A stretch of DNA of 49,393 nucleotides. Origin: an uncultured Anaerofilum sp. GTDB taxonomy: Bacteria; Bacillota; Clostridia; Oscillospirales; Ruminococcaceae. The stretch lies in assembly GCA_944385945.1 (NCBI GenBank), contig CALWZD010000017.1, positions 1 to 49,393 of the forward strand, written 5' to 3'. Under the pieces are notes generated by a model, which was not told the DNA's origin, ran no database searches, and saw only the letters and a program-made list of their open reading frames with translations. The position numbers were made by a program, and so were the translations under genes. Numbering within the stretch: the first letter of the stretch is position 1; each line of letters starts with the position of its first letter. Below, piece by piece: positions 20,191 to 43,172 of this stretch.

Positions 20191-20213
20191 TGAAAGGGAA
20201 AGGGGTGCTGCAT

Positions 20214-20915: not shown

Positions 20916-20960
20916 GCCAATCATTGACGGCTTGTACAATTTTTGTTGAAAAAGATTGTG

Positions 20961-21001: not shown

Positions 21002-21089
21002 GGTATACGAGGAATCAAATTGCAGAGTTCGCTTTCTCCGCACTGCATAGCCCTTTCTTCTCCTAGGCTGTGCAGATTTGGGCGGCAGT

Positions 21090-21120
21090 CGGTTTGCGGT
21101 TAGCAAGGGACCGCAAACCG
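21090..21120 (+). other. Hairpin in the long kduI leader
   Basis: CGGTTTGCGGT and ACCGCAAACCG form a perfect 11-bp stem with loop TAGCAAGGG. No T-run follows, so it is an mRNA structure of unknown role in a 200-base leader. Confidence 0.55.
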
Positions 21121-21209
21121 CACTGTTGCTGAATTCTGCTCCTTATATATCGAACGCATCAACCGCCGAAACCCGTTCGGCTGGAATATTTTTTAGGAGG
21201 AACAAACCC

Positions 21210-22052: not shown

Positions 22053-22060
22053 GTTTACCG

Positions 22061-22081
22061 AAAACAGCACCCCGCTGTTTT
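22061..22081 (+). other. Intercistronic hairpin between kduI and kduD
   Basis: AAAACAGC, loop ACCCC, GCTGTTTT. An 8-bp perfect stem just after the kduI stop, possibly an mRNA-processing or weak termination signal. Confidence 0.55.
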
Positions 22082-22110
22082 GAATACAATCAATCAAGGA
22101 GGACATAACA

Positions 22111-22911
22111 ATGGATTTGAAAGCATTTGACCTGACTGGTAAAGTTGCTCTGGTGACCGGCGCATCCTACGGCATCGGTTTCGCTATCGCAAAAGGACTG
22201 GCATCCTGCGGTGCTACTATCTGCTTCAACGACATCAACGAAGAATTCCTGAACAAGGGTCTGGCAAACTATAAAGAGGCTGGTATCGACGCACACGGCT
22301 ATGTATGCGACGTTACCGATGAGGCGGCTGTACAGAATCTGGTCAAGACCATCGAAGAAGAAGTTGGCGTGATCGACATTCTGGTAAACAATGCAGGTAT
22401 CATCAAGCGCATCCCCATGATCGAGATGGCAGCTGAAGATTTCCGCAAGGTTATCGACGTTGACCTGAACGCTCCGTTCATCTGTGCAAAGGCTGTTATC
22501 CCCTCGATGATCAAAAAGGGCGGCGGAAAGATCATCAACATCTGCTCCATGATGAGCGAGTTTGGCCGTGAAACCGTTTCTGCTTATGCAGCTGCAAAGG
22601 GCGGCTTGAAAATGCTGACCAAGAACATCGCTTCTGAGTATGGTCAGTACAACATCCAGTGCAACGGCATTGGACCCGGCTACATCGCTACTCCCCAAAC
22701 TGCCCCCCTGCGTGAGGTTCAGCCGGACGGCAGCCGTCATCCCTTCGATCAGTTCATTCTGGCAAAAACCCCCGCAAACCGCTGGGGCGAGCCCGAGGAT
22801 CTGGCAGGCCCCGCTGTGTTCCTGTCTTCCTCCGCTTCCGACTTCGTAAACGGTCTGATCTTGTATGTAGACGGCGGTATCGCTGCTTACATCGGCAAAC
22901 AGCCCTCCTGA
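22111..22911 (+). CDS. kduD: 2-dehydro-3-deoxy-D-gluconate 5-dehydrogenase / gluconate 5-dehydrogenase-like SDR (KduD)
   Basis: A 266-aa short-chain dehydrogenase with AAGGAGG before ATG 22111. The cofactor loop TGASYGIG (17-24), NNAG, catalytic S146, Y159 and K163 are all present. The protein closely resembles streptococcal enzymes first named gluconate 5-dehydrogenase, which reduce 2,5-diketo-3-deoxygluconate to KDG in glycosaminoglycan catabolism. Position directly after kduI favours the KduD role; the product then feeds KdgK. The same hairpin-bounded transcript ends at 22969. Confidence 0.92.
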   Translation: MDLKAFDLTGKVALVTGASYGIGFAIAKGLASCGATICFNDINEEFLNKGLANYKEAGIDAHGYVCDVTDEAAVQNLVKTIEEEVGVIDILVNNAGIIKRIPMIEMAAEDFRKVIDVDLNAPFICAKAVIPSMIKKGGGKIINICSMMSEFGRETVSAYAAAKGGLKMLTKNIASEYGQYNIQCNGIGPGYIATPQTAPLREVQPDGSRHPFDQFILAKTPANRWGEPEDLAGPAVFLSSSASDFVNGLILYVDGGIAAYIGKQPS

Positions 22912-29426: not shown

Positions 29427-30317
29427 TTAATTCGCTCCGCCTGTACTGCGTTCGATCTTTAGGCTGGTCACAAATTCTTTGGGGCTGATGTGATATTCCG
29501 ACTTGAACGCACGGTAGAAGTTCGCATAATCACCAAACCCGCAATGTTGATATACGTCGGTGGGCGGTGTGCCGTCGCTCAGCATCTGCTTTGCAATCAC
29601 CAACCGCTTTTGAATGATGTAGCGGTAGACCGACGTCCCCACCAACCGATTGAACTCATGCGAGAGGTGGTATTTGCTGATGAAAAACTTGCCTGCCAGC
29701 AAGTCCAGCGACAAGTCTTCGCTGTAATGCTCGTTGATGTAGGCAAGCACGTTGGAAACCACCGGACCCGATTTGTCCTTTACCTCGTGGTGCTGTGGGC
29801 TTCGTTCGGCAAGGCGATTGACCAATATCAGCAGTTCGATGAGGTATGCGGCTGCCGCAAGGTCGCTGGCAAATTCGTGCGATTCGGTTTCGGTGATAAG
29901 CCGTTCCATCAGGTTGGTCACGTGCTGACGGGTTGCAGCGTCAGGGCGAATCATATTGGTATGGTAGGGATGACCCGTGTCGAAGCAACGGGTGAGGTCG
30001 TGACCGGTTTTGTTCAAGTCCTTGATGAATGCTTTGTCGATCCACAAAACGATGCGCTCATATGGCTGTTTTTCCCATGTAAACATCGGCTGATGCAGCT
30101 CCAGGGGACTGATGAGCAAAATGTCGCCCGGCATTAGGTGGTAGTTGCGGCTCTCGATGCTGTAATTGACATTCCCCGACAAAAACAGATAAATTTCATA
30201 AAAATCGTGGTGGTGAAGGGCAACTTCATTCAGGTAAGAATCCCGATAGCGATAAATTTCGTAGTTACGGCGAAGCATATACTGGCGGGAGATAAAATTT
30301 TGAACTTTTGCCGGCAA
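29427..30317 (-). CDS. AraC-family regulator with cupin sensor domain
   Basis: About 296 aa. AAGGAGG at 30326-30332 overlaps the GTG at 30326, so I prefer TTG 30317, eight bases downstream of it; GTG 30326 remains possible. The N-terminal cupin (HHHDFYEIYLFLSGNVNYSIESRNYHLMPGDILLISPLELHQP) binds a sugar-like ligand, and the C-terminal double helix-turn-helix (SLDLLAGKFFISKYHLSHEFNRLVG... HCGFGDYANFYRAFKSEYHISPKEF) binds DNA. It is divergent from the isomerase/oxidoreductase/uxaC operon and is its likely activator. Confidence 0.9.
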   Translation of the reverse strand: MPAKVQNFISRQYMLRRNYEIYRYRDSYLNEVALHHHDFYEIYLFLSGNVNYSIESRNYHLMPGDILLISPLELHQPMFTWEKQPYERIVLWIDKAFIKDLNKTGHDLTRCFDTGHPYHTNMIRPDAATRQHVTNLMERLITETESHEFASDLAAAAYLIELLILVNRLAERSPQHHEVKDKSGPVVSNVLAYINEHYSEDLSLDLLAGKFFISKYHLSHEFNRLVGTSVYRYIIQKRLVIAKQMLSDGTPPTDVYQHCGFGDYANFYRAFKSEYHISPKEFVTSLKIERSTGGAN

Positions 30318-30387
30318 AATCTCCACCTCCTTAGCGTGATTGTAAAAAAAGAGTGCAACGGCAGATAGAAAAAGTTATATTATTAAC

Positions 30388-30573: not shown

Positions 30574-31452
30574 ATGACTTCTAAAATTGTAATTTCCGGT
30601 TTTGCGGATGAAATCAGCGCACAGCTGGACGAACAGCTGAAAGTTGTGACCCAGCTGGGAATGAACCACATCTCCTTGCGTGCAGCCGACGGAAAAGGCA
30701 TTGCAGAATATACACTCGACGAGGTAAAAGAAAGCATTTTGCCCCGCTTGAATGCAGCAGGCGTAAAGGTTTCCAGCTTGGGCAGCCCCATCGGTAAAGT
30801 GAATGTGGACGACGAAGAAGGCTTTGAAAAACAGCTCGTTCAGTTGGACACTCTGTGCCAGATCTGCCACCTGTTGGACTGCAAATACATCCGTATGTTC
30901 AGTTTCTACATCCCCAAAGACAAAGATGCTGACGATTACCGTGACATCGTGTTGGAAAAATTGAAAAAGTTTGCAGCCATTGCAGAAAAATATGACGTCA
31001 TCCTCATCCACGAAAACGAAAAAGACATCTACGGTGACATTGCCCGTCGCTGTAAAGTGGTTCTGGACGAACTGGCAAGCCCGCACTTCAAAGCTGCGTT
31101 CGACTATGCAAACTTCGTTCAGTGTGGCGAGGATACCGCCGCTGCGTGGGAAATGCTGAAAGAACACGTGGTCTACATCCACATTAAAGACGCTGTATAC
31201 GGCAAGGGCGAAAACGTTGTTTGCGGTACCGGCGACGGAAAAATTGCACAGCTGCTTGAGCAGGCAATCGTGAAAGAGGGCTACGAGGGCTTTTTGACTT
31301 TGGAACCGCATTTGGTTCTGTTCGACACTCTGCAAAGCCTCGAAACCGAGGATGCCACCGACATCATCACCGAGAACAAGGCAAAAGACGGTGCAGAAGG
31401 CTACGCAATGCAGTATAACGCATTGAAAAACATTTTAAGCAAATTCATGTAA
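30574..31452 (+). CDS. Sugar phosphate isomerase/epimerase-like TIM barrel
   Basis: A 292-aa protein of the xylose-isomerase-like TIM-barrel family (PF01261 type); AAAGGGG precedes the ATG. The four metal ligands can be read as E147 (LIHENEKD), D177 (AAFDYANF), H203 (VYIHIKD) and E244 (LTLEPHL). This family includes epimerases, inosose dehydratases and enzymes that cleave 3-keto-glycosides. It opens an operon with two Gfo/Idh/MocA dehydrogenases, a second member of its own family, and UxaC. The exact reaction is not known. Confidence 0.88.
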   Translation: MTSKIVISGFADEISAQLDEQLKVVTQLGMNHISLRAADGKGIAEYTLDEVKESILPRLNAAGVKVSSLGSPIGKVNVDDEEGFEKQLVQLDTLCQICHLLDCKYIRMFSFYIPKDKDADDYRDIVLEKLKKFAAIAEKYDVILIHENEKDIYGDIARRCKVVLDELASPHFKAAFDYANFVQCGEDTAAAWEMLKEHVVYIHIKDAVYGKGENVVCGTGDGKIAQLLEQAIVKEGYEGFLTLEPHLVLFDTLQSLETEDATDIITENKAKDGAEGYAMQYNALKNILSKFM

Positions 31453-31488
31453 TCCAATTTACATAAAAACTAAAGGAGAATCTTCAAC

Positions 31489-32679
31489 ATGGACAAGAAA
31501 ATTCGCTTCGGTCTTATCGGTATCGGCGCACAGGGCGGTGCTTACGCCGGCTTTTTGACCGGCAAAGCAGGTTTCCCCGGAATGCCCGCACCGGAATGCC
31601 CTCCCCACTGCGCACTGGGCGCACTGTGTGACATCGACCCCGCAAAAGAGGCGATGTGCAAAGAAAAATACCCCGAGTATCCTTTCTTCAGCGATTGGAA
31701 AGAGATGGTAGCTTCCGGCACTGTAGACGCAGTTATCACCACCGTTCCCCACTACCTGCACACCGAGATCGCTATCTACTGCATCGAGCATGGTATGCCT
31801 GTTTTGGTAGAAAAACCCGCAGGTGTATATGCAAAATCGGTTCGTGAGATGAACGAGTGCGCTGCTGCACATCCCGAAGTTCCTTTCGGCATCATGTTCA
31901 ACCAGCGTACCAATAAACTGTATCAGCGTATCAAAGAAATCATCGCTTCGGGCGAGATGGGCGAGATCCGCCGTTCGAACTGGATCATCAACACTTGGTG
32001 GCGTCCCGACAGCTACTACCGTCAGAGCGACTGGCGTGCTACCTGGGGCGGCGAAGGCGGCGGTGTTCTGGTAAATCAGGCTCCCCACCAGCTCGACCTG
32101 TGGCAGTGGATGTGCGGTGTACCCACCAAGGTATACTCCAAAATCAAATACGGCTGCCATCGTGACATCGTTGTAGACAACGACGTTACCATCCTGACCG
32201 AGTATGCAAACGGTGCAACCGGTTCTTTCATCACCTGCACCCACGACGCTTGCGGTACCGACCGCTTGGAGATCGACTTCGATAAGGGTAAGATCGTTGT
32301 GGACAACAGCAAGACCGCAACCGTTTATCGCCTGAACAAGAGCGAGCAGGAAATGAACGACACCATGAGCATGATGGAAGTTGCAAAACTGACCAGCGGC
32401 AACGGCGGCGGCGGACTGTTTACCACCGAAACCTTCGAAAACACCGACGGTTGGGGCTATCAGCACACCACCGTTATGGAGAACTTTGCTTGCCACATCC
32501 TCGAGGGTACCCCGCTGCTGGCTCCCGGTAGCGATGGAATCAACGGCGTGACCTTGGCAAACTCTACCCTGCTGTCCAGCTGGTTGGGTCGTGAGGTGGA
32601 GAATCCCTGCGATGAGGAGCTGTTCTTGGCAGAGCTGAACAAGCGTATCGCCGAAGAAGGCAAGTTCCCCACCCGCTAA
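31489..32679 (+). CDS. Gfo/Idh/MocA-family oxidoreductase 1
   Basis: A 396-aa NAD(P)-dependent dehydrogenase; AAAGGAG precedes ATG 31489. The Rossmann start RFGLIGIGAQGGAY, the conserved VLVEKPAG with the catalytic lysine, and QAPHQLDLWQW with the active-site histidine are clear. Compared with typical 330-350-aa members, it has an extended middle with WWRPDSYYRQSDWRATWGGEGGG and a DGWGYQHTTVMENF segment, common in sugar/glycoside oxidising branches. It lies 36 bases after the isomerase gene. The substrate is probably a sugar, glycoside or uronate. Confidence 0.9.
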   Translation: MDKKIRFGLIGIGAQGGAYAGFLTGKAGFPGMPAPECPPHCALGALCDIDPAKEAMCKEKYPEYPFFSDWKEMVASGTVDAVITTVPHYLHTEIAIYCIEHGMPVLVEKPAGVYAKSVREMNECAAAHPEVPFGIMFNQRTNKLYQRIKEIIASGEMGEIRRSNWIINTWWRPDSYYRQSDWRATWGGEGGGVLVNQAPHQLDLWQWMCGVPTKVYSKIKYGCHRDIVVDNDVTILTEYANGATGSFITCTHDACGTDRLEIDFDKGKIVVDNSKTATVYRLNKSEQEMNDTMSMMEVAKLTSGNGGGGLFTTETFENTDGWGYQHTTVMENFACHILEGTPLLAPGSDGINGVTLANSTLLSSWLGREVENPCDEELFLAELNKRIAEEGKFPTR

Positions 32680-32694
32680 TTCAAAAAAGTGGCT

Positions 32695-32721
32695 GACAGG
32701 GCGTTGCATTTCTGCCCTGTC
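32695..32721 (+). other. Intercistronic hairpin between the two dehydrogenase genes
   Basis: GACAGGGC and GCCCTGTC, an 8-bp perfect stem with an 11-base loop; no strong T-run follows. It may affect mRNA stability or partial termination. Confidence 0.55.
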
Positions 32722-32750
32722 CATGCCCTTTTATAGGAGGCAGTCATAAA

Positions 32751-33746
32751 ATGAAACGAGTTGCTGTAATCGGTTTGGGCGAAATCGCAAAAGTACACGT
32801 TCCCATCTTGTCGAAGTTGGAAACCGTGGAACTTTGCGCAGTATGTGATTTGAGAGAGGAACGCAGGAACCTTGCACCCAACGTTCCGTTCTACACAGAT
32901 TACAAAGAAATGTTGGAAAAGGAAAAGCCGGATTGTGTCCACCTGTGCTTGCCGCACTGGCTGCATTATCCGGTGGCAAAAGATGTTGCCGAAGCAGGCG
33001 TGAACATCTTCTGCGAAAAACCCCTTGCCCTCAACGCCGAGCAGGCACGACAGTTCGAGCAGCTGGAACAGCAGCACCCCGAGATTAAAATCGGTCTGTG
33101 TTTGCAGAACCGCTACAACGAAACCACCGAGGCATTGATGCGCATCATCGAAAGTGGCTTGGAGGGTGCAGTGACCAGCGTAAAAGCAAATGTGGTATGG
33201 GCACGTTCGAAAGAATATTACGATGCCGAGCCTTGGCGTGGCAAGATGAACACCGCCGGCGGTGGTGCGATGATCAACCAGAGCATCCACACGTTGGACT
33301 TGATGTCCCAGTTTGGCGGTGAGATCGACACCATCCGTGGCAACATTTGCCAGTTGCTGGAATATGGCATCGAAGTAGAAGACACCGCAGTGGCACACAT
33401 CCTGTACAAAAACGGTGCAGTAGGTACCTTCTTTGCAACCGTTTCCCATGCAGTAAACACCAGCGTGGAGATTGCTGTGGAAATGGAAAAAGGCAGCTAC
33501 CGCATTCAGGACAACAAGCTGTGGAAACTGGAGGGCAGCGAAATGACCTTGCTGGCAGAAGATGCCCGTTTGCCCGGCGCAAAGTTCTACTACGGCGCAA
33601 GCCATGCCAAACTGATCCGTATGTTCTACGAGGACTTGGAAAGCGGCGAGTGCCGTTATCCCCGTGCTGCTGACGGCGTGATGAGTATGCGAATGATCGA
33701 CGCTGTTCGTGCATCTTCCCAAAGCGGAAAGCCCGAAACCGTATAA
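32751..33746 (+). CDS. Gfo/Idh/MocA-family oxidoreductase 2
   Basis: A 331-aa dehydrogenase with AGGAGG before ATG 32751. It starts MKRVAVIGLGEIAKVHVP, has the CEKPLALN motif with the catalytic lysine and NQSIHTLDLMSQFGG with the histidine. It is shorter than the first copy and clearly a different branch, so the two are unlikely to be recent duplicates. It may act on a different intermediate of the same pathway, for example re-reducing a keto sugar. Confidence 0.9.
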   Translation: MKRVAVIGLGEIAKVHVPILSKLETVELCAVCDLREERRNLAPNVPFYTDYKEMLEKEKPDCVHLCLPHWLHYPVAKDVAEAGVNIFCEKPLALNAEQARQFEQLEQQHPEIKIGLCLQNRYNETTEALMRIIESGLEGAVTSVKANVVWARSKEYYDAEPWRGKMNTAGGGAMINQSIHTLDLMSQFGGEIDTIRGNICQLLEYGIEVEDTAVAHILYKNGAVGTFFATVSHAVNTSVEIAVEMEKGSYRIQDNKLWKLEGSEMTLLAEDARLPGAKFYYGASHAKLIRMFYEDLESGECRYPRAADGVMSMRMIDAVRASSQSGKPETV

Positions 33747-33837
33747 AAAATCCCGACTGCCGCCCAAATAGGAGAAAGCGTAGATTGCGCTGTTATCAGG
33801 AGAAGATAAAACTAAACAGTAAAGGAGTTTGAACCCA

Positions 33838-34704
33838 ATGAGCAAAAAAGGCTTGATCGGTATTCAGATGAGTACCATTAAAAATAAGATCAACGAACTG
33901 GGCGCATACGACACCTTGAAAGCCTGTGCAGAACTGGGCTACCACTGTGTAGAGGTAAGCCAGATCCCAATGACCCCAGAAAACGTTGCCGAAATGAAAC
34001 GTGCCTGCGACGAGTTCGGCATTAAGATCGCTGCTCTGTCGGCTGGTTTGGAGCCGATGATACCCGGTATGCCCGGCGAGTGGCTGACCACCGATTTCGA
34101 CAAGATCGTTGCCGATTGTAAAGCACTGGATTGCGATATGCTGCGCATCGGTATGCTGCCGATGAACTGCATGGGCAGCCGTGAGAAAGCTTTGGACTTT
34201 GTAAAACGTGCCGACGAGATGGCAGCACGTCTGAAAGAACATGGCATCGACCTGTACTACCATAACCACCACATCGAGTTCACCAAATACGACGGTGAAT
34301 ATCTGCTGGACATCATCAAGAACAACACCAAGCACATGGGCTTCGAGTTGGACATCCACTGGATCCAGCGTGGTGGTGAAAATCCCGTTGAGTTCATCAA
34401 GAAATACGACGGTCGCATCCGTCTGCTGCATCTGAAAGATTACCGCATCGGCGAAGTGAAGATGCCCGAAGCTCCTTTCGACCCCAAAACCTTTATGGAT
34501 GCATTCACCGGTGTGGTAGAGTTTGCAGAGGTCGGAGAGGGTACTTTGCCCATCAAAGAGTGCATCGAAGCAGGTCTTGCAGGTGGCAGTGAGTACTTCC
34601 TCATCGAGCAGGATGATACTTATGGTCGTGATCCCTTTGAGTGCCTCAAAACCAGCCGCGAAAACCTCATCAAACTGGGCTACGCAGACTGGTTTGAACT
34701 GTAA
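33838..34704 (+). CDS. Sugar phosphate isomerase/epimerase-like TIM barrel 2
   Basis: A 288-aa protein; ATG 33838 follows AAAGGAG, the upstream TTG being too close. The motif YYHNHHIEF holds ligand E147, ELDIHW holds D172, RLLHLKD holds H198 and FLIEQDD holds E257. The YHNHHxEF form is common in family members encoded beside Gfo/Idh/MocA dehydrogenases. The two TIM-barrel genes flank the two dehydrogenase genes symmetrically, suggesting two oxidation/isomerisation steps. The substrate is not established. Confidence 0.88.
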   Translation: MSKKGLIGIQMSTIKNKINELGAYDTLKACAELGYHCVEVSQIPMTPENVAEMKRACDEFGIKIAALSAGLEPMIPGMPGEWLTTDFDKIVADCKALDCDMLRIGMLPMNCMGSREKALDFVKRADEMAARLKEHGIDLYYHNHHIEFTKYDGEYLLDIIKNNTKHMGFELDIHWIQRGGENPVEFIKKYDGRIRLLHLKDYRIGEVKMPEAPFDPKTFMDAFTGVVEFAEVGEGTLPIKECIEAGLAGGSEYFLIEQDDTYGRDPFECLKTSRENLIKLGYADWFEL

Positions 34705-34784: not shown

Positions 34785-36188
34785 ATGAAAGCATTTATGG
34801 ATAAAGACTTTTTGCTGACCACCGAAACCGCTCGCACACTGTACCACGAGCACGCAGCAAAAATGCCTATCATTGACTATCACTGCCACATCAATCCGCA
34901 GGAGATCGCCGAGGATCGCCGTTTTGAAAACATCACTCAGGTATGGCTGGGCGGCGACCACTACAAATGGCGTGTAATGCGCTCCAATGGTGTAGACGAG
35001 AAATACATTACCGGCGATGCTTCTGACCGTGAGAAGTTCCAGAAATTCGCCGAGGCTCTGCCCAAGGCAATCGGTAACCCCATGTACCACTGGTGCCATC
35101 TGGAATTGCAGCGTTATTTTGGCTACAACGGCGTTTTGAACGGTGAAACTGCTGAGGAAGTTTGGAACCTGTGCAACGAGAAATTGCAGAACGACCCCAA
35201 CACCACTGTTCGTGGCTTGGTAAAATCGAGCAACGTTTACATGGTAGGTACCACCGACGATCCTTGCGACAGCTTGGAGTGGCACAAGAAAATCGCTGAG
35301 GACGCAAGCTTCGAAACCAAAGTTTGCCCCAGCTTCCGCCCCGATAAGGCTTTGAACATCGACAAGCCCGGCTTCGTAGAGTATATCCATCAGCTGGAAA
35401 AAGTAGTTGGCAGCGAGTTCAGCTGCATCCACTGTGTACGTGACGCTCTGGGTCAGCGCATCGACTTCTTTAACGAGATGGGCTGCCGTGCTTCTGACCA
35501 CGGTCTGGACTACATCATGTATCGTCCCGCAGATGACGCTACCGTTTCTGCTATCTTCCAGAAAGCAATGAAGGGCGAAACCATTACCGTCGAAGAAGCA
35601 GAGATGTACAAAACCGCTCTGTTGCTGTTCTGCGCACGTAAATATGCCGAACTGGGCTGGGCAATGCAGCTGCACTACTCCTGTATGCGTAACCCCAACG
35701 CAAAAATGTTCGCAAAGCTGGGCCCCGACACCGGTTATGACGTAATCGGCATCACTTCCAGCGGCAGCGCATTGGCTGCACTGCTGAGCCAGCTGGACAG
35801 CGAAAACAAGCTGCCCCGTACCATCCTGTACAGCCTGAACCCCGCTGACAATGCACAGCTGGGCACCATCATCGGCGCATTCCAGGGCGTTGAGGTTGCC
35901 GGCAAAATGCAGCACGGCAGCGCATGGTGGTTCAACGACAACAAAACCGGTATGTTCGAGCAGATGACCAGCCTTGCAAATCTGGGCTTGTTGGGCAACT
36001 TCATCGGTATGCTCACCGACAGCCGCAGCTTCCTGTCCTACACTCGTCACGAGTACTTCCGCCGCATCCTGTGCGAACTGATCGGCAACTGGGTAGAGAA
36101 CGGCGAGTACCCCGCTGATATGAAGGCATTGGGTGCAATGGTAGAAGATATTTGCTTCAACAACGCAAAACGTTATTTTGGCATCTAA
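34785..36188 (+). CDS. uxaC: Glucuronate isomerase UxaC
   Basis: A 467-aa enzyme of the amidohydrolase-like superfamily; AAAGGAGAG precedes ATG 34785. DYHCHINPQEIAEDRRFENITQVWLGGDHYKWRVMRSNG is the classical N-terminal signature with the HxH metal ligands. It converts D-glucuronate to D-fructuronate (and galacturonate to tagaturonate). Its length is standard. It ends the operon that begins at 30574 and is followed by a strong terminator. Together with the downstream uxuA and SDR it completes the glucuronate-to-KDG route. Confidence 0.97.
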   Translation: MKAFMDKDFLLTTETARTLYHEHAAKMPIIDYHCHINPQEIAEDRRFENITQVWLGGDHYKWRVMRSNGVDEKYITGDASDREKFQKFAEALPKAIGNPMYHWCHLELQRYFGYNGVLNGETAEEVWNLCNEKLQNDPNTTVRGLVKSSNVYMVGTTDDPCDSLEWHKKIAEDASFETKVCPSFRPDKALNIDKPGFVEYIHQLEKVVGSEFSCIHCVRDALGQRIDFFNEMGCRASDHGLDYIMYRPADDATVSAIFQKAMKGETITVEEAEMYKTALLLFCARKYAELGWAMQLHYSCMRNPNAKMFAKLGPDTGYDVIGITSSGSALAALLSQLDSENKLPRTILYSLNPADNAQLGTIIGAFQGVEVAGKMQHGSAWWFNDNKTGMFEQMTSLANLGLLGNFIGMLTDSRSFLSYTRHEYFRRILCELIGNWVENGEYPADMKALGAMVEDICFNNAKRYFGI

Positions 36189-36227: not shown

Positions 36228-36273
36228 GCGGCGTGTCGCTTTGAGCTTTTTCAAGGCGGTGCGCCGCTTTTTT
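36228..36273 (+). terminator. Terminator of the isomerase-dehydrogenase-uxaC operon
   Basis: A 17-position stem formed by GCGGCGTGTCGCTTTGA and TCAAGGCGGTGCGCCGC with several G-U pairs, loop GCTTTT, then TTTTTT. Confidence 0.85.
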
Positions 36274-36374: not shown

Positions 36375-36518
36375 AGTGTGGTATGCTATGAATAGTCAAT
36401 AAAAAGTTTTTCTGTTTTTCTTGAAGCGGTGTGCAAAATGCGTTACAATAAAAACAGGAAGTCTGAAGATGGACGTTATATAATCAAATCAGAAAGCTTA
36501 ATAAGGAGGATGATACCA

Positions 36519-37568
36519 ATGAAACTTTCGTTCCGCTGGTATGGTGATTCTGACCCCATTTCGCTGGAGTATATCAGCCAGATCCCCGGTATGCGCAGCA
36601 TCGTTTCCGCTGTTTACGATGTAAAGCCCGGCGAGGTATGGCCCGAGGAAAGCCTTGCTAAAATGAAGCAGCAGTGTGAGGCACACGGCTTGGTATTCGA
36701 CGTTGTAGAGTCGATTCCTGTTCACGAGGACATCAAACTGGGCCGCAACAATGTTGAGGAGTTGCTCGATGTTTACTGCGAGAATATCCGTCGCTGCGCA
36801 AAGCACGGCGTAAAATGCGTGACCTACAACTTCATGCCCGTATTCGACTGGACTCGTACCCAGCTGGATAAAAAAGCCGCTGACGGTTCTACCAGTCTGG
36901 TAATGTATTGGGATCAGATGAAAGGTCTGGACCCCCTGAAAGACGACATCCACCTGCCCGGTTGGGATTCCAGCTACACGCAGGACGAGGTTCGTGAGCT
37001 GATCCAGGCTTACGGCGAGCTGGGTGAGGAAGGTCTGTGGAAGAATCTGGAGCACTTCCTGAAGAAGGTCATCCCTGTTGCTGAGGAGTGCGGCGTTGTG
37101 ATGGCAATTCATCCCGACGATCCTCCATACCCCATTTTTGGTCTGCCCCGCATCATCACCTGCGAGGCAAACCTCGACCGCTTCCTGAAGCTGGTCGACA
37201 GCCCCGCAAACAGCCTGTGCCTGTGCACCGGTTCGCTGGGTTGCGCTGCTTCCAACGACGTTGTTGCAATGGTTCGCAAGTACTCTGCAATGGGTCGCAT
37301 CGGCTTCATGCATATGCGTAACGTAAAGATCATGGAAGATGGCAGCTTCGAGGAGCGTGCGCATCTGTCCAGCTGTGGCAGCTTGGATATGTACGACATC
37401 GTGAAAGCTTTGGTAGAAACCGGCTTTGACGGCTATGTACGTCCCGACCACGGTCGCATGATCTGGGGCGAGACCGGTAAGCCCGGCTATGGTCTGTATG
37501 ACCGTGCTTTGGGTGCTACCTACATCAACGGTCTGTTCGAGGCCTGCGAGAAGAACCTGAAGAAATAA
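36519..37568 (+). CDS. uxuA: Mannonate dehydratase UxuA
   Basis: A 349-aa protein; ATG 36519 follows AAGGAGG, while the longer frame from 36429 is leader. [25 protein letters not shown] is the typical UxuA start, and the TIM-barrel metal sites are seen in [26 protein letters not shown] and FMHMRNVK. It dehydrates D-mannonate to 2-keto-3-deoxygluconate, joining the KdgK/aldolase route of the other operon. It has its own regulatory region and is followed by a hairpin and the reductase gene. Confidence 0.96.
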
Positions 37569-37663: not shown

Positions 37664-38515
37664 ATGAACAAGAATGTTTTGGATACCGATTTGACCGGAA
37701 AAGTTGCTGTTGTTACCGGTGCAGGTGGCGTTTTGTGCTCCGCTTTTGCAAAAACTCTGGCTCGTGCAGGCGCAAAGGTTGCTTTGCTGGACTTGAATGA
37801 GGCTGCTGCACAGACCTTTGCTGACGAGATCGTTGCAGAGGGTGGCGTTGCTAAGGCTTACAAATGCAACGTTTTGGAGAAAGAGTCCTGCTACGCTGTT
37901 GCAGAGCAGGTTGCAGCAGACTTGGGCAGCTGCGACATTCTGGTAAACGGTGCAGGCGGCAACAACCCCAAAGCTACCACCGACAAAGAGTATTTTGAGA
38001 TTGGCGACATCGACGCTGACACCAAGAGCTTCTTTGATTTGGACGCTGACGGCGTAGGTTTCGTATTCAACCTGAACTTCTTGGGAACCTTGATCCCCAC
38101 TCAGGCTTTTGCACGTCAGATGATTGGCAAAGCAGGCTGCAACATCATCAACATCAGTTCGATGAATGCTTACACTCCGCTTACCAAGATCCCCGCTTAC
38201 TCCGGCGCAAAAGCTGCGATCTCCAACTTCACCCAGTGGTTGGCTGTTCACTTCAGCAAGGTCGGCATTCGTGTAAATGCTATCGCTCCCGGTTTCTTCT
38301 CCACCAAGCAGAATGCTGCTCTGCTGTTTAATGCAGACGGCACTCCCACCGCTCGTACCGGCAAGATTTTGGCTGCTACTCCGATGGGTCGTTTCGGCGA
38401 GAGCGAGGAGCTGGACGGCAGCTTGCTGTTCCTGTTGAACAACAAAGCAGCTTCTTTCATCACCGGCGTTGTTATCCCTGTTGACGGTGGTTTCTCCGCT
38501 TACTCTGGCGTATAA
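37664..38515 (+). CDS. uxuB: SDR-family D-mannonate oxidoreductase (fructuronate reductase, UxuB/YjmF type)
   Basis: A 283-aa short-chain dehydrogenase with AAGGAGAAG before ATG 37664. The cofactor loop TGAGGVLCSAFA, NGAGG, the catalytic SSMNAY region and Y179/K183 (YSGAK) are present. The long insert around residues 100-135 (GNNPKATTDKEYFEIGDIDADTKSFFDLD, written in part) is typical of the Bacillus YjmF type, which reduces fructuronate to mannonate and is unrelated to the long-chain E. coli UxuB. It is placed between UxaC and UxuA in the pathway. Confidence 0.92.
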   Translation: MNKNVLDTDLTGKVAVVTGAGGVLCSAFAKTLARAGAKVALLDLNEAAAQTFADEIVAEGGVAKAYKCNVLEKESCYAVAEQVAADLGSCDILVNGAGGNNPKATTDKEYFEIGDIDADTKSFFDLDADGVGFVFNLNFLGTLIPTQAFARQMIGKAGCNIINISSMNAYTPLTKIPAYSGAKAAISNFTQWLAVHFSKVGIRVNAIAPGFFSTKQNAALLFNADGTPTARTGKILAATPMGRFGESEELDGSLLFLLNNKAASFITGVVIPVDGGFSAYSGV

Positions 38516-38877: not shown

Positions 38878-40362
38878 ATGGCAACATCTAAGTATGATGT
38901 AGGAAACGGTATTCACCGTGTTCCGCTGTGGCGCATTGCGGGCTATGCGCTAAACAACTCTGCAACCAACCTGTATATGTTCTTTATGGGCTACGTTGCG
39001 TATTATCTGAATGGCTTCGTTGGTATGGCTGCAATTTTGGCAGGTAGCTTCTCCATGATGATGCGTATTTGGGACGGCGTCACCGATCCGTTCGTGGGCT
39101 ACATGGTTGACCGTACTACGACCCGTTTTGGTAAAAACCGTCCGTTCATCGTGATCGGTCAGATTATCCTGTGCGTGTCCAGCTACATCATGTTCCATGT
39201 CACCCATATGCTGCCCGAAAACACTTTACTGCGCAGCGTATTCTTTATCATCATGAGCATGATTTATTATATTGGATACACCTGTCAGTGTGTTGTTACC
39301 AAGTCTGCACAGACCTGCGTTACCAACGACCCCAAACAACGCCCCTTGTTCTCGGTGTTCGATGGTATGTACAATCTGGTTATTTTCTCCGGTTTGGCTA
39401 TCGTGGTTGCCGGTCCGATGTACAATAAGTACGGCACCTTTGTTGCCGAAGGTTTCTTCCATGATATGTGGCTGATGACTGCGATCGCTTCTGCTGTTTG
39501 CACCGTAATTGCTGTTATCTCTATCTCTCCCAAGGATAATCCCAAATACTTTGGTACCGGTAAAGTAGTTAAAGTTGGCTTCAAAGACTACTGGGATGTA
39601 TTGAAAAATAACCGTGCGATCCAGATGCTGGTTCTGTCGGCATCTACCGATAAACTCGGTTCTTCCGCAAAAACGACTGCTGTTACCGCAGTTATGTTCG
39701 GTGTAGTTGTTGGCAACTTCTCTTTGAGCGGTGGTTTCACCCTGTACACCTCTATCGCAAACATCGTGTTGCTTGTTCTCGGTATCGGTGTTTTGGCTAC
39801 CCGTTTGGGTCAGCGTAAGGCAATGCTGGTTGGCTCTTGGGGTGCTTTGATCGGTAATGGATTGTTGGTTTGTCTGTGGACATTCGGCGACCCCACCACT
39901 TTCTCGCTGCCTGGTTACAAGGGCTTCATCGTTTGGAACTTCTTCAGCGTTGCACTGCTCGTTTTGACCATGCTCACCGGTGGTTTGCAAAATATTGCAG
40001 GCAGCATCGTTATCCCCATGACCGCCGACTGTGCCGACTACGAAGTATACCGCTCGGGTCGATATGTTCCCGGTTTGATGGGTACCTTGTTCAGCTTTGT
40101 TGATAAGCTTATTTCTTCGTTGGCACCGATGGTTGCAGGCGTTGTGTTTGCAATGGTTGGTTACGCCGAGCAAATGCCCGACATGAACTCCCCGTATAGC
40201 ACCGGTTTGAAATTTGCAGGTATCTTCCTGATGTATGGTCTGATCATGGTAGGTCTGGTATGTAACGTTATAGCGATGAAGTTCTACCCCCTGACCAAGG
40301 AAAAGATGGAGGAGATCCAAGACAAGATCGCAGAAATCAAAAGCCAGGCTATGAAAGCTTGA
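38878..40362 (+). CDS. GPH-family sugar:cation symporter 1 (glycoside-pentoside-hexuronide)
   Basis: A 494-aa transporter; AAAGGAG precedes ATG 38878. About 12 membrane helices are visible. The conserved IWDGVTDPFVGYMVDRTTTRFGKNRPF after helix 2 is the GPH/MelB signature, and the PMTADCADYEVYRSGRYVPGLMG block is common in uronide-type members. It imports a glycoside or hexuronide with H+ or Na+. Location after the glucuronate genes makes a glucuronide or glucuronate a likely substrate. It is followed by a TM2 protein gene. Confidence 0.93.
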   Translation: MATSKYDVGNGIHRVPLWRIAGYALNNSATNLYMFFMGYVAYYLNGFVGMAAILAGSFSMMMRIWDGVTDPFVGYMVDRTTTRFGKNRPFIVIGQIILCVSSYIMFHVTHMLPENTLLRSVFFIIMSMIYYIGYTCQCVVTKSAQTCVTNDPKQRPLFSVFDGMYNLVIFSGLAIVVAGPMYNKYGTFVAEGFFHDMWLMTAIASAVCTVIAVISISPKDNPKYFGTGKVVKVGFKDYWDVLKNNRAIQMLVLSASTDKLGSSAKTTAVTAVMFGVVVGNFSLSGGFTLYTSIANIVLLVLGIGVLATRLGQRKAMLVGSWGALIGNGLLVCLWTFGDPTTFSLPGYKGFIVWNFFSVALLVLTMLTGGLQNIAGSIVIPMTADCADYEVYRSGRYVPGLMGTLFSFVDKLISSLAPMVAGVVFAMVGYAEQMPDMNSPYSTGLKFAGIFLMYGLIMVGLVCNVIAMKFYPLTKEKMEEIQDKIAEIKSQAMKA

Positions 40363-40481
40363 TAAAGTTAAGGATTTTGTAGGATAGATCATGCGGTAAA
40401 GAAAAGGTATTTTGAAAAACGATTTTCATTGTGGCGGTTTTAGGAGAGGTCGCCCAGTGCAAAATGGTTCAACCGCTGCTA

Positions 40482-40513
40482 AAAGGCTCTGCGGAAAAGT
40501 TCGCAGAGCCTTT
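40482..40513 (+). terminator. Terminator between symporter 1 and the first TM2 gene
   Basis: AAAGGCTCTGCG and CGCAGAGCCTTT, a perfect 12-bp stem with loop GAAAAGTT. The T-run is short, so read-through is possible. Confidence 0.75.
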
Positions 40514-40600
40514 ATCTGTTGTAACACCATAAAATACTGCTAAAAAACAGTTATGCGATTGCGCTTGCAAAAAGCGTCGACCACCACAAGGAGCATCAGT

Positions 40601-40969
40601 ATGCAAAAAGATGAAAAACAAAAAAATCTTGCACCGCAGGAGATCAGTGAACTGATAAAGCTGGAAGAAGAACTGTATCAACTGAAAGAGCAGAATAATA
40701 TTCCGATTGAGCGCAGCAGATTCCATCGCTTTATGGATTGGTTGATGGAAATAAAGGAGCGTCCTCATCCGGTGCGACGAAAGAAATACCTTTGGCTGGC
40801 ATTGCTTACCGGCTGGATGGGTGGGCATCGTTTTTATGCAAAACAGTATATTACGGCAGTAATCTATCTTGCACTGTTTTGGACAGGTGTACCGGCAGCA
40901 ATGACCATCATCGACCTGATGGCAGCGTTGCCTAAGCAGGCAGACGAGCAGGGCATGATAAGCGTTTGA
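40601..40969 (+). CDS. TM2-domain membrane protein A
   Basis: A 122-aa protein; ATG 40601 follows AAGGAG, the upstream ATG at 40553 has no ribosome site. A charged helical N-terminus (ISELIKLEEELYQLKEQNN) is followed by the TM2 domain: RRKKYLWLALLTGWMGGHRFYAKQYITAVIYLALFWTGVPAAMTIIDLMAALPKQAD, with two helices and the GGHRFY turn. TM2 proteins have no settled function in bacteria. It pairs with symporter 1, and the same pairing recurs with symporter 2. Confidence 0.88.
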   Translation: MQKDEKQKNLAPQEISELIKLEEELYQLKEQNNIPIERSRFHRFMDWLMEIKERPHPVRRKKYLWLALLTGWMGGHRFYAKQYITAVIYLALFWTGVPAAMTIIDLMAALPKQADEQGMISV

Positions 40970-41050
40970 CCCAGCAAAAAGCCAACTCGTTTTGTTTGCT
41001 TTGCACTTACGCTAACTCGATTTTGAACAACAGCTTTATTCCATACACCG

Positions 41051-41091
41051 AAGGCACAAGTTCTTTTTACAAAAAGGACTTGTGCCTTTTT
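41051..41091 (+). terminator. Terminator after TM2 protein A
   Basis: AAGGCACAAGTTCTTTTT and AAAAAGGACTTGTGCCTT (one mismatch), loop AC, then TTT. The stem is long. Confidence 0.82.
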
Positions 41092-41457
41092 GTAAGAATA
41101 AAATGAAAGATACAGGCAACACTAGCAACAGCAATAAGAGAACTTTGTACTCAACAATTACAATATTGTAAAAAATGTGATTTTCATATACGTACAAAAA
41201 AACGCATGGCAAAGTTAAAAAAATCACGAAGAAAACAGCAGTCAAAAAATCAATATCATTTTTTATGCTTTTTTGGAAAGTGAAAGCTTTTAAAAAGCTA
41301 TAAGCATAAACGGAAATCAAATAAATTATGCAACATTTATAAAAAATAAATAAAAAAGTATACAATTTAAATAGAAAATAAGCGCAGACTTTTTTGTGTA
41401 AATTGTGCAAAATGTATAAAAATAGCAAGAAACGCAATCCCTGACGCAATTTTTGCA
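41092..41457. other. AT-rich gap with no gene I can support
   Basis: About 365 bases of strongly A-rich plus-strand sequence between the TM2-A terminator and the promoter of symporter 2. The reverse strand has a 140-codon open frame rich in Phe, Leu and Ile, but no ribosome site, no recognisable family, and its end runs through the terminator hairpin. I see no RNA structure. Confidence 0.6.
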
Positions 41458-41486
41458 TTGGAAACGACGGGCGAAAGTGTTAATAT
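41458..41486 (+). promoter_or_regulatory. Probable promoter of symporter 2
   Basis: TTGGAA at 41458-41463, 17 bases, TAATAT at 41481-41486; the start codon is at 41556. Confidence 0.55.
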
Positions 41487-41555
41487 ATTATCAATGCGGG
41501 TCGTTTTGTGCCGCAAACAGCAATATCCACACTTTTAACTAGAGGAGAAGAAACC

Positions 41556-43172
41556 ATGAGCGACTTGAAACATTCAAGTGGTGTACATCGTGCCCATACA
41601 TGGGAAATCGGTTTGTACGCTTTGAACAACACCTCTACCAACCTGTATCTTACCATGGTAGGCTACATTGCTTACTTCTTGGCAGGTATCGTTGGTGTAA
41701 CCACCGTTTTGGCTGGTTCTATCATCACCATCATGCGCATTTGGGACGGCGTTACCGACCCCTTTGTAGGCTATCTGGTTGATAAGACCAATACCAAGTT
41801 TGGTAAAAACCGTCCATATATCGTGATCGGTAATGTGATCCTGTTCGTGATGACTTGGCTGATGTTCAACATCCTACCCAGCATGAGCACTGCTATCCGT
41901 TTCCCCGTGTTTATCCTGATGTACATGGTTTACATCATCGGATACACTTTCCAGTGCGTTGTTACCAAGTCTGCACAAAGCTGCTTGACCAACGACCCCA
42001 AACAGCGTCCCGTATTTACCATGTTCGATTCCGTTTACAACGTTTTGGCAATGAGCTTGATCATCCCTGTTTACGTTTCGAACACTTTGGTTCCCAAGTA
42101 CACCCTTACCAGCACAAACAATGCTGCTGAGATCGACGCTTTGGTTGCACAGAACCCCGGTATCGCAGCCAGCTTGACCGTAAAAGACGGCATCACCACT
42201 TTGTCCGGTTTGTATCATCCGGAACTGTACAAAGAAATGCAGCTGGTTTTGGGCATTGTAGCTGCCGTATTTGCAGTGTGTGCGATCATTGGTCTGTGGC
42301 GTAAAGATAATGTGAAATACTTCGGCACCGGTAAGGTCACCCGTGTTGGATTTAAGGATTATGTTGACGTTATGGCACATAACCGTGCGATCCAGATGCT
42401 GGTCGTTTCGGCTTCTTCCGATAAGCTCAGCTCTACGATGATGACCAATGCTACCATCATGGTATGCTTGTTCGGTATCATCTGCGGCAACTACGCAATG
42501 TTTGGTTCCAACTCTGCAATCACCACCATTCCCATTGCTGTGCTGACCATTTTAGGCGTTAACTTTATCGCTCGCCGCATGGGTCAGAAGAAAGCGTTGG
42601 TAATCGGTACTTGGGTTTCGCTGGCAAGTGCAGCACTGCTGCTGGCTCTGTTCGTCTTCTTGGAGCCGCTCACCATGAAGCTGCCTACCTTCAGCCTCAC
42701 CAAACCCGAAACCTTTGCAAACTTGGTAATGCCTTCTAACTGGAGCTTGTTCGGCGTTCTCTTTGTTGTGCTGTACTGTGTAATGCGTGCGGCTGCCGGC
42801 GTTGCAGGCAACATCGTTATCCCCATGACCGCTGACTGTGCCGACTACGAAGTATATCGTTCGGGTCGCTATGTTCCCGGTTTGATGGGTACCCTGTTCA
42901 GCTTTGTTGACAAGCTGATCAGCTCTCTGGCAACTACCTTTGTCGCTCTGTTCTTCGCAGCGATCGGCTACACCGACGTTCTGCCCACTCCTGAAAGCCC
43001 CTACTCCACCGGAATCTTCTGGGTGACTATGGCTTGCTTCTTGGGCGCACCGGTAATCGGCTGGATTTTGAACATCGTTTCCATGAAGTTCTATCCCTTG
43101 ACTAAGGAGAAGATGGAAGAAATTCAGGATCGCATCGCTCAGATCAAGGCAGAGGCTGCAAAAGAGCAGTAA
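41556..43172 (+). CDS. GPH-family sugar:cation symporter 2
   Basis: A 538-aa paralogue of symporter 1; ATG 41556 lies after GAGGAG. It shares the IWDGVTDPFVGYLVDKTNTKFGKNRPY signature and PMTADCADYEVYRSGRYVPGLMG with the first copy, so they come from a duplication. It differs by an insert of about 45 residues (TLTSTNNAAEIDALVAQNPG and following) between helices in the first half, predicted outside the membrane, which may alter substrate choice. It is followed by a second TM2 gene. Confidence 0.93.
   Translation: MSDLKHSSGVHRAHTWEIGLYALNNTSTNLYLTMVGYIAYFLAGIVGVTTVLAGSIITIMRIWDGVTDPFVGYLVDKTNTKFGKNRPYIVIGNVILFVMTWLMFNILPSMSTAIRFPVFILMYMVYIIGYTFQCVVTKSAQSCLTNDPKQRPVFTMFDSVYNVLAMSLIIPVYVSNTLVPKYTLTSTNNAAEIDALVAQNPGIAASLTVKDGITTLSGLYHPELYKEMQLVLGIVAAVFAVCAIIGLWRKDNVKYFGTGKVTRVGFKDYVDVMAHNRAIQMLVVSASSDKLSSTMMTNATIMVCLFGIICGNYAMFGSNSAITTIPIAVLTILGVNFIARRMGQKKALVIGTWVSLASAALLLALFVFLEPLTMKLPTFSLTKPETFANLVMPSNWSLFGVLFVVLYCVMRAAAGVAGNIVIPMTADCADYEVYRSGRYVPGLMGTLFSFVDKLISSLATTFVALFFAAIGYTDVLPTPESPYSTGIFWVTMACFLGAPVIGWILNIVSMKFYPLTKEKMEEIQDRIAQIKAEAAKEQ

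Follow-up and report, generated by a model that had tools for sequence, protein, structure and literature searches.

The sequence of oxidation, elimination, hydration and reduction has been described for the levoglucosan pathway, with the enzymes LgdA, LgdB1, LgdB2 and LgdC (PMC7676230). A further precedent for the four steps is the Agrobacterium set of GlycDH, AtOGE, AtHYD and a Gfo oxidoreductase, in which the hydratase role of AtHYD is preliminary; the metal ligands and catalytic base of AtOGE are assigned in the same work, which also states that cleavage of C-glycosides requires the CGD beta subunit (PMC10628242). In Escherichia coli, YcjR acts as a 3-keto-glucoside 4-epimerase. Here we compare these systems with a four-gene cluster from an uncultured Anaerofilum sp., found in a stretch of 49,393 nucleotides that is called the window. 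We consider it quite likely that the quartet cleaves glycosides by the same oxidation-elimination-hydration-reduction route, in a form directed at glucuronides.

Layout and setting of the quartet

The quartet occupies positions 30574-34704 on the + strand and consists of a TIM barrel, two Gfo/Idh/MocA proteins and another TIM barrel, named here TIM1, Gfo1, Gfo2 and TIM2, all four in intact frames (Table 1). Pfam reads the series including the next gene as AP_endonuc_2, GFO_IDH_MocA (two), AP_endonuc_2 and UxaC, every one above its cut-off. This agrees with the initial annotation, which had placed two such oxidoreductases between two TIM barrels with intact metal sites upstream of uxaC. For TIM2 the ATG at 33838, preceded by AAAGGAG, was preferred over the mechanical call at 33829. 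Consecutive genes from TIM1 through uxaC are separated by 36, 71, 91 and 80 bases, and every gap contains a GGAG-type ribosome site. Of the terminator-like hairpins in the whole stretch, the longest follows only after uxaC, and + strand matches within the quartet are limited to 5-pair stems (31536, 33414); all of these hairpins are consensus matches, of which 22 were found against 17.1 expected. Given the small gaps with ribosome sites and the long hairpin 3' of uxaC only, the quartet and uxaC look like one transcription unit, which probably ends at that hairpin.

Another Anaerofilum MAG (L026) shows the same gene order, at 79-98% identity, so the quartet is not an assembly artefact. Both share the upstream eda, kinase, gntR, kduI and SDR genes as well as the downstream uxuA, uxuB and gph. 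The divergent AraC-family gene, whose homologues (60-88% identity) hold the same position in four of the 28 relatives surveyed below (L026, L047, L050, L051), is a probable local regulator. Further catabolic genes lie about 10-13 kb upstream; they encode a KDPG aldolase and a sugar kinase, judged from its context to be a KDG kinase. The first of two GPH-family symporters is a probable importer of glucuronide or glucuronate, and a homologue of either one occurs in 10 of 28 related loci.

Table 1. Features of the quartet and neighboring genes (positions in the window)
Feature	Position	Strand	Basis or remark
AraC-family regulator	29427..30326	-	Pfam AraC_binding + HTH_18; divergent from quartet
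TIM1, accessory AP_endonuc_2 TIM barrel	30574..31452	+	292 aa; Pfam
Gfo1, putative glucuronide 3-dehydrogenase (NAD)	31489..32679	+	396 aa; 8TDI kinship
Gfo1 Lys109, EKP motif	31813..31815	+	invariant in 29/29 rows
Gfo1 His200, NQAPHQLDL	32086..32088	+	invariant in 29/29 rows
Gfo2, second Gfo/Idh/MocA enzyme, accessory	32751..33746	+	331 aa; Pfam
TIM2, putative 3-keto-glucuronide beta-eliminase (1,2-lyase)	33838..34704	+	AtOGE profile match, AL1/BT1 fold
TIM2 His142-Asn-His144	34261..34269	+	predicted metal ligand and catalytic base; AtOGE His132/His134; invariant in 36/36 rows
TIM2 Asp172	34351..34353	+	predicted metal ligand; aligned with AtOGE Asp163
TIM2 His198	34429..34431	+	predicted metal ligand; aligned with AtOGE His189
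TIM2 Glu257	34606..34608	+	predicted metal ligand; aligned with AtOGE Glu233
uxaC, glucuronate isomerase	34785..36188	+	Pfam UxaC 690 bits; NCBIfam equivalog 638.5, cut-off 387
Terminator-like hairpin, 3' of uxaC	36228..36267	+	18 pairs, TTTTTT tail; consensus match only
uxuA, mannonate dehydratase	36516..37568 (start approximate)	+	455.3, cut-off 191
SDR, D-mannonate oxidoreductase subfamily, uxuB role	37664..38515	+	PRK08277 433.1 bits, cut-off 281
GPH-family symporter	38878..40362	+	Pfam MFS_2 above cut-off; below NCBIfam cut-offs
Second GPH-family symporter	41508..43172	+	48% identical to the symporter at 38878..40362

A conserved pair of putative dehydrogenase and eliminase

The assignment of Gfo1 as an NAD-dependent glucuronide 3-dehydrogenase comes through PDB entry 8TDI, 'P2B11 Glucuronide-3-dehydrogenase', to which it is identical at 300 of 397 aligned positions (76%, full length). 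In a search of PDB sequences 8TDI scored 717.5 bits and the runner-up 87.6, and in the tree 8TDI falls within the 30-row group of Gfo1 with a support of 100/100. Scores were much lower against the levoglucosan dehydrogenase model (64 bits, cut-off 650) and against the DgpA chains (27-39 bits), the latter at odds with the closeness to DgpA that had been suggested for this locus. K109, H200 and D203 are invariant in 29 of 29 rows, and Gfo2, like Gfo1, retains the lysine of EKP as well as the motif NQxxHxxD; we take Lys109 and His200 to be the catalytic lysine and histidine of the superfamily. The paper behind 8TDI is presumably Nasseri et al. 2024.

TIM2 is predicted to be a 3-keto-glucuronide beta-eliminase, based on active-site identity with AtOGE and on the AL1/BT1 fold. 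A profile search returned AtOGE (8bvk, E 2.6e-34) as the top match, followed by 8tcs, 8tcd and 8tct, and Foldseek placed the 3-keto-beta-glucopyranoside-1,2-lyases AL1/BT1 at ranks 1-4 for a model with a pLDDT of 93.3, with solved members of the eliminase family again at rank 8. All five active-site residues of AtOGE are identical in TIM2 (H142, H144, D172, H198, E257), and none of them varies across the 36 rows aligned. Together with the kinship of Gfo1 and 8TDI, this site and fold lend support to the earlier suggestion of an oxidative, hydrolase-free release of glucuronate.

In a survey of 28 further loci that carry a close Gfo1, the conserved core proved to be Gfo1 and TIM2, with TIM1 and Gfo2 as accessory genes. 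TIM2 is present in 27 of these clusters, the remaining one (L045) stopping at a contig edge, whereas TIM1 occurs in 25 and Gfo2, at 50-79% identity, in 23. Four steps in four genes are thus not general, since Gfo2 is missing from five loci and TIM1 from three. The smallest clusters (L030, L053) hold Gfo1 and TIM2 with a symporter; the genome of L053 (G620) carries a TIM1-like (47%) and a Gfo2-like (38%) gene 1.5 kb apart on another contig. Because some genomes contain such distant copies elsewhere, the sufficiency of Gfo1 and TIM2 alone cannot be taken as given. The genomes belong mostly to Lachnospiraceae (20) and Oscillospiraceae (6) and include named strains. The uxaC gene is found in 27 of the 28, compared to 47 of 398 genomes sampled across the phylum and 65 of 197 sampled across the family, raw counts uncorrected for relatedness and habitat. 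Among the 24 loci with 1 kb or more of sequence beyond TIM2, it directly follows the cluster in three and is not adjacent in the other 21.

In the proposed pathway, a glucuronide would be imported by the GPH symporter and oxidized at its C3 hydroxyl by Gfo1 with NAD. A divalent metal in TIM2, held by H142, D172, H198 and E257, would polarize the 3-keto group, H144 would abstract the C2 proton, and the aglycone would be expelled by beta-elimination to leave a 2-hydroxy-3-keto-glycal uronate. Hydration to 3-keto-glucuronate might be carried out by TIM1 or by TIM2 itself, and reduction to glucuronate, which would regenerate NAD, by Gfo2 or by Gfo1 in reverse, both steps following the levoglucosan and Agrobacterium precedents. 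By analogy, Gfo2 is the probable 3-keto-glucuronate reductase. Glucuronate would then be catabolized by UxaC, the UxuB-type SDR, UxuA, the sugar kinase and the KDPG aldolase. Likely substrates are O-glucuronides.

TIM1 and alternative readings of the cluster

TIM1 may be a hydratase or a 3-keto-uronide epimerase. Its metal ligands are intact (E147/E149, D177, H203, E244), and the residues invariant in 40 rows are H146-E-N-E149, D177, H203 and E244, within the conserved motifs GSPxGK, HENE-xxIxG, FDxAN, YxHxKD and EPHL. An epimerase resembling YcjR, which would bring galacturonides or other uronides into the gluco series either ahead of cleavage or following it while TIM2 both eliminates and hydrates, is possible, though we regard it as the less likely option. 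The best folds for the TIM1 model (pLDDT 92.9) are 3u0h, Art22, UlaE and D-tagatose 3-epimerases, with YcjR at rank 12; its strand 5 carries an invariant E-x-E and lacks the second His of the eliminases two residues past the first ligand; some loci without TIM1 keep the core; and a single lyase may catalyze both steps (PMC13273386; LgdB2, PMC7676230). AtHYD (8ro4) is nevertheless also among the fold matches, at rank 22, the second barrel is a hydratase in two described clusters, in the case of AtHYD on preliminary evidence (PMC7676230, PMC10628242), and a Pfam scan of the 18 window proteins found no uxaA/uxaB-type galacturonate gene. The profile search of TIM1 returned no characterized hydratase, AtHYD being absent from its 15 sequence matches. 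The better fold match to epimerases makes membership in the AtHYD family less likely, while still allowing a hydratase role. Rather doubtful is the further-reaching idea that TIM1 founds an enzyme family of its own, a 3-keto-uronide epimerase that lets the C3-oxidizing module convert galacturonides or other uronide epimers to glucuronate, with dehydrogenase and eliminase modules as a common second way of freeing uronates in Clostridia.

Readings that give up the O-glucuronide route fare worse. Conversion of a free, unusual uronate to glucuronate by oxidation, epimerization and reduction, leaving glycosidic bonds untouched, is within the capacity of two dehydrogenases and TIM barrels in a cluster that continues into uxaC; the complete eliminase site of TIM2, the naming of 8TDI for glucuronides and the minimal clusters of Gfo1 and TIM2 with a symporter make it unlikely. 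Cleavage of C-glucuronides or C-glycosides of the DgpA/DgpBC type is very unlikely: the two superfamilies are the same, DgpB-C and DfgA-DfgB appear among the TIM2 fold matches (ranks 21 and 26), and CGDB occurs in five of 29 genomes searched, including those of L027 and L028, but the DgpA scores of Gfo1 are low, and strand 5 of TIM2 has His142 as in AtOGE where C-glycoside enzymes carry Glu (PMC10628242). TIM1 does have a strand-5 Glu, though no His two residues on. The CGDB model (PF19906), which works as judged by its matches in 5 of 29 searched genomes, had no match in the 14 control genomes or in this 80% complete genome, so the C-glucuronides envisaged in the initial annotation are unlikely substrates.

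That the quartet serves an inositol or other cyclitol pathway (IolG/IolE/IolI) and adjoins uxaC by chance is scarcely credible. NCBIfam ranks IolG first for both Gfo1 and Gfo2 and IolE first for TIM2, and Pfam names the gene at 21078-22052 KduI/IolB. The scores fall far below the cut-offs (IolG 79.1 and 99.6 bits of 355; IolE 47.2 of 290), on which grounds the pathway was rejected; the gene at 21078-22052 is KduI (426 bits, cut-off 250) and not IolB (30 of 205), and Gfo1 groups with 8TDI.

Implications and comparison with known systems

Gut beta-glucuronidases are regarded as the enzymes by which glucuronidated drugs and hormones become active again. If glucuronate catabolism is fed by a hydrolase-free route, that route would be missed by gene surveys and left untouched by inhibitors of glucuronidase. 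The window joins such a predicted route with uxaC in one probable operon, the principle being already in the literature. The claim that glucuronide hydrolases are missing holds for the window but cannot be carried over to the genome, where a LacZ4-like GH2 on contig C76 may be a glucuronidase that could release glucuronate hydrolytically; the claim therefore lends the hydrolase-free route no support. As the core pair occurs in further genomes, named strains included, its physiological substrate is testable. On the further-reaching reading of TIM1, C3-oxidizing modules would be a common alternative to beta-glucuronidase in Clostridia, freeing uronic acids together with their bound partner molecules, and the sister Gfo1 families, seen in 41 of the 197 genomes of the family sample, would widen the range.

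Among known systems, E. coli YcjQRS shares the 3-keto sugar chemistry, and YcjR resembles TIM1 by fold, but YcjS is only 24% identical to Gfo1 and 32% to Gfo2 over 188 residues. The BT_2158 and BT_2159 families (NF058561, NF058563) gave scores below their cut-offs for Gfo1 (42 of 750) and Gfo2 (29.5 of 750; 22.3 of 650). DgpA and DgpB-DgpC have the superfamilies and the logic of C3 oxidation in common with the quartet; they differ in the low similarity to Gfo1 and in the beta subunit, not found in this genome. D3dgpA is reported to be inactive on apigenin-7-O-glucuronide, and hence DgpA-type specificity differs from a glucuronide route (PMC11239390). Closer in composition, the levoglucosan pathway combines a dehydrogenase, two isomerase-like proteins and a Gfo reductase, but acts on an anhydrosugar and yields glucose (PMC7676230). 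The Agrobacterium operon likewise pairs an eliminase with a second TIM barrel and a Gfo oxidoreductase, and AtOGE shares all five active-site residues with TIM2 at 19-21% identity; there, however, the flavoenzyme GlycDH performs the first oxidation, and the substrates are glucosides (PMC10628242). AL1 (8tcd, 8tcr) and BT1 (8tct), the top fold matches of TIM2, align with it in the HNH, D and H residues at 19-22% identity and are named for glucosides, not glucuronides. For 8TDI the substrate is read from the PDB molecule name, and the 76% identity and shared tree group suggest that it probably catalyzes the same first step as Gfo1. The system had been proposed as previously undescribed, but 8TDI, the AL1/BT1 structures and the levoglucosan and Agrobacterium pathways predate it (PMC7676230, PMC10628242). 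Since both its chemistry and a near relative of its key enzyme are already known, the quartet is a fresh example rather than a new system.

The cluster and its surroundings

The quartet TIM1, Gfo1, Gfo2 and TIM2, two Gfo/Idh/MocA oxidoreductases flanked by two AP_endonuc_2 TIM barrels, is a real and well-conserved cluster for glucuronide use via C3 oxidation and elimination, as predicted from sequence, fold and gene pairing. An AraC regulator gene is divergent from it, and uxaC is followed by uxuA, an SDR of the D-mannonate oxidoreductase subfamily and two GPH symporters. These symporters share 48% identity; perhaps one serves glucuronides and the other free uronate. The gaps within the quartet (36, 71 and 91 bases) and to uxaC (80 bases) come with Shine-Dalgarno-like sites, and the longest terminator-like hairpin of the stretch is found only 3' of uxaC, so that quartet and uxaC are probably a single transcription unit. 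Another hairpin lies 3' of uxuB (consensus matches: 22 found against 17.1 expected by shuffling). The genome is a draft in 149 contigs, 80% complete, and the window is its contig C17. Since the closest named relative, an uncultured Anaerofilum MAG (locus L026), keeps the same arrangement at 79-98% identity, the quartet is not an assembly artefact.

Genes discussed in the text, with positions in the window unless a contig is named
Feature	Position	Strand	Remark
AraC-type regulator	1334-3613		beside polysaccharide lyase family 8 gene
Lyase_8 protein, polysaccharide lyase family 8	3677-6076		three Lyase_8 domains; hyaluronate lyase HylB model 401 bits, cut-off 1350
KDPG aldolase	17897-18958		Pfam match residues 44-230 of 353
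KDPG aldolase, PfkB-type kinase, kduI, SDR	17897-22911		upstream of quartet
Quartet	30574-34704	+	four intact genes; runs into uxaC
TIM1	30574-31452	+	AP_endonuc_2 TIM barrel
Gfo1	31489-32679	+	Gfo/Idh/MocA oxidoreductase
Gfo2	32751-33746	+	Gfo/Idh/MocA oxidoreductase
TIM2	33838-34704	+	AP_endonuc_2 TIM barrel
uxaC	34785-36188	+	directly 3' of quartet
GPH symporters	38878-43172		pair
LacZ4-like GH2	contig C76, L101:904-3177	-	LacZ4 beta-glucuronidase model 594 bits, cut-off 950; NNKG in sequence, read by eye

The polysaccharide lyase family 8 gene, kduI and the genes for an SDR, a PfkB kinase and KDPG aldolase give the window the look of a uronate/glycosaminoglycan island. KduI scores 426 bits against a model cut-off of 250, and the upstream SDR clears the gluconate 5-dehydrogenase cut-off and falls short of those of KduD. 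The C-terminal extra stretch of the KDPG aldolase (residues 240-352) gives a weak glyoxalase I model match (20 bits, cut-off 120); judging from the sequence, the gene perhaps encodes an aldolase-VOC fusion.

Assignment of the four enzymes

Compared with all PDB sequences, Gfo1 matches 8TDI, deposited as 'P2B11 Glucuronide-3-dehydrogenase', over its full length at 717.5 bits, the runner-up reaching 87.6 bits; 300 of 397 residues are identical (76%, BLASTP). In a 90-row maximum-likelihood tree, Gfo1 and 8TDI group with the 28 close relatives at a support of 100/100; the branch between this group and the 50 sister sequences, which were fetched at 40-52% identity, measures 1.25 changes per column. 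The tree includes the best Gfo1 match of each sister locus (one each), 8 of the 23 Gfo2 relatives and the window's Gfo2; the rows of L016 and L025 are identical. We take the function of Gfo1 as glucuronide C3 oxidation, following the deposited name of 8TDI. Because of this deposition, the proposal in the initial annotation that the system was previously undescribed fails. The genome has a second Gfo1-family gene (contig C79:57356-58447, locus L023), 49% identical to Gfo1, which the tree puts among the sister families.

In the accessible text of PMC10628242, the Agrobacterium O-glycoside beta-eliminase AtOGE cleaves 3-keto-O-glucosides by beta-elimination, with His132, Asp163, His189 and, weakly, Glu233 as metal ligands and His134 required. 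AtOGE is the best PDB match of the TIM2 profile (36 rows, E 2.6e-34), with 8tcs, 8tcd and 8tct next; 8tcs carries no lyase title in the data examined, and in the alignment it shows the same residues as 8tcd. The lyase structures matching TIM2 presumably belong to the gut pathway described by Nasseri et al. 2024 (Nature 631:199). The AtOGE site residues align with H142, D172, H198, E257 and H144 of TIM2, all five of them invariant in 36 of 36 rows of an alignment (A3) that leaves out L011 (stop in the frame used), L014, L083 and L084; A3, like alignment A2, includes distant relatives in part only. An AlphaFold2 model of TIM2 (pLDDT 93.3) has the solved 3-keto-beta-glucopyranoside-1,2-lyases AL1 and BT1 as its top four Foldseek matches and AtOGE at rank 8. 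Profile match, shared active site and fold matches thus identify TIM2 as a 3-keto-glycoside lyase, a predicted activity. At L051:12316-14172, TIM2 occurs 5' of uxaC as a tandem duplicate, the copies 65% and 58% identical to that of the window (tblastn) and both HNH.

For TIM1 (model pLDDT 92.9) two readings have to be weighed. It carries an E/D/H/E set as in sugar epimerases and is without the eliminase His two residues past the strand-5 ligand; judged by its fold, TIM1 may be an epimerase. By analogy with LgdB2 and AtHYD it may instead be a hydratase; its sequence profile gives 15 PDB matches at E <= 1, headed by AsbF and Art22, with no hydratase of the AtHYD/LgdB2 kind among them. A literature search, with most subscription papers outside its scope, found neither a '2-hydroxy-3-keto-glucal' hydratase nor a glucuronide-3-dehydrogenase by that name. 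All 24 Gfo2 rows retain the catalytic motifs, and the top PDB matches of Gfo2 are 3q2k, 8TDI and 3q2i. We take 3q2k and 3q2i to be WlbA, a 3-dehydrogenase acting on UDP-linked uronic acid. By analogy, Gfo2 may be an LgdC-like 3-keto reductase of the last step.

Cleavage of C-glucuronides, also envisaged in the initial annotation, is unlikely. C-glycoside cleavage is reported, in the source text available, to require a beta subunit; the corresponding family CGDB (PF19906) has no match in the 80% complete genome and is present in 5 of 29 genomes searched. The DgpA chains reach 27-39 bits against Gfo1, and with this low similarity and CGDB not found in the genome, kinship with DgpA/DgpBC is rejected. 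D3dgpA is described as inactive on apigenin-7-O-glucuronide in the accessible part of PMC11239390. An inositol pathway (scores far under cut-offs) and the BT_2158/BT_2159 families (scores under cut-offs) were likewise rejected. The supposed lack of a glycoside hydrolase for glucuronides was dropped as support in view of the LacZ4-like GH2. A search of the draft genome with E. coli UidA gave six matches, the best at 31% identity and with LacZ4 beta-glucuronidase as its top model, under the cut-off. Its NNKG was compared with the glucuronidase motif NxKG, and by sequence this GH2 is a candidate glucuronidase.

Related loci and the tie to uxaC

A pattern scan of 84,980 species genomes yielded 38 loci, 28 with a close Gfo1 (77-96% identity) and 10 distant ones (L054-L063, 22-29% identity) excluded from the 28-locus counts; as two short peptide patterns were sought, close-Gfo1 loci number at least 28. 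TIM2 is in the cluster at 27 of the 28, the remaining locus (L045) stopping at a contig edge, TIM1 at 25 and Gfo2 at 23, so that Gfo1 and TIM2 are the conserved pair. A GPH symporter homologue is present at 10/28, and uxaC lies immediately 3' at 3 of the 24 loci extending at least 1 kb past TIM2. Among the carriers of the cluster are the cultured Faecalimonas umbilicata DSM 103426 (L029) and Faecalicatena orotica (L033).

A universal need for all four genes is rejected, TIM1 being absent at 3/28 loci and Gfo2 at 5/28; the clusters of L030 and L053 consist of Gfo1, TIM2 and a symporter. Genomes of the five loci without Gfo2 have no close copy (two without a match at E 1e-30, three with a best match of 28-38% identity; completeness not given). 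Of the three genomes whose locus is without TIM1, two have a 47%-identical copy at another place and the third has no match (completeness not given). We do not take Gfo1 and TIM2 as sufficient, because TIM1-like or Gfo2-like genes occur elsewhere in the genomes of L053, L030 and L049. The L030 genome has a Gfo2-like gene (35%) and no TIM1 match, that of L049 a TIM1-like gene (47%). In the L053 genome (G620), TIM1-like (47%) and Gfo2-like (38%) genes stand 1.5 kb apart (C59:89650-92899; L108, L111) on a contig that also bears uxaC (134897-136285). These two genes make up a related cluster, and the Gfo1-TIM2 locus of this genome has neither TIM1 nor Gfo2.

Modules built like Gfo1-TIM2 are not rare across the phylum, given that sister Gfo loci have a TIM2-like neighbour in 33/50 cases (H-N/T-H signature in 30) and a TIM1-like one in 27/50 (HENE in 23), counts that are non-independent (L016 and L025 overlap, L018 and L024 share one genome, L023 is from the window's own) and may be low, the loci spanning about 1.5 kb each side of the match. 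At eight sister clusters (L016, L067, L068, L069, L071, L072, L077, L078) two tandem Gfo1-family genes adjoin TIM2-like and TIM1-like barrels. ORF clustering of neighbourhoods, disturbed by long antisense frames, gave leads only, two being AraC and a TM2 protein.

UxaC (PF02614) is encoded in 27 of 28 close-Gfo1 genomes, against 47/398 in a phylum sample and 65/197 in a family sample. In the phylum sample, 14/21 genomes that carry the wider Gfo1 family (E <= 1e-60) have UxaC, compared with 33/377 non-carriers (Fisher p 1e-9); in the family sample the figures are 33/41 and 32/156 (p 2e-12). Both tests ignore kinship and habitat. G415 of the family sample is probably the genome of L026, with uxaC on the same contig at the same coordinates.

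Comparison with known pathways

The identity of the parts, the conservation of their residues and the pairing of genes are established here. The cluster is of value for its tie to uxaC, its conserved core pair, and TIM1 as a family without an assigned role. Substrate, step order, the roles of TIM1 and Gfo2, and import by the GPH symporters are what we infer. Orthology of the Gfo enzymes to YcjS was rejected at 24-32% identity. In the accessible text of PMC7676230, levoglucosan is converted to glucose by LgdA/B1/B2/C, two of which are 'sugar phosphate isomerase' proteins and one a Gfo reductase; LgdB2 also performs some elimination. An Agrobacterium operon holds GlycDH, AtOGE, AtHYD and a Gfo enzyme (PMC10628242). 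The plan in print, as far as these texts go, is C3 oxidation, beta-elimination, hydration and reduction (PMC7676230, PMC10628242).
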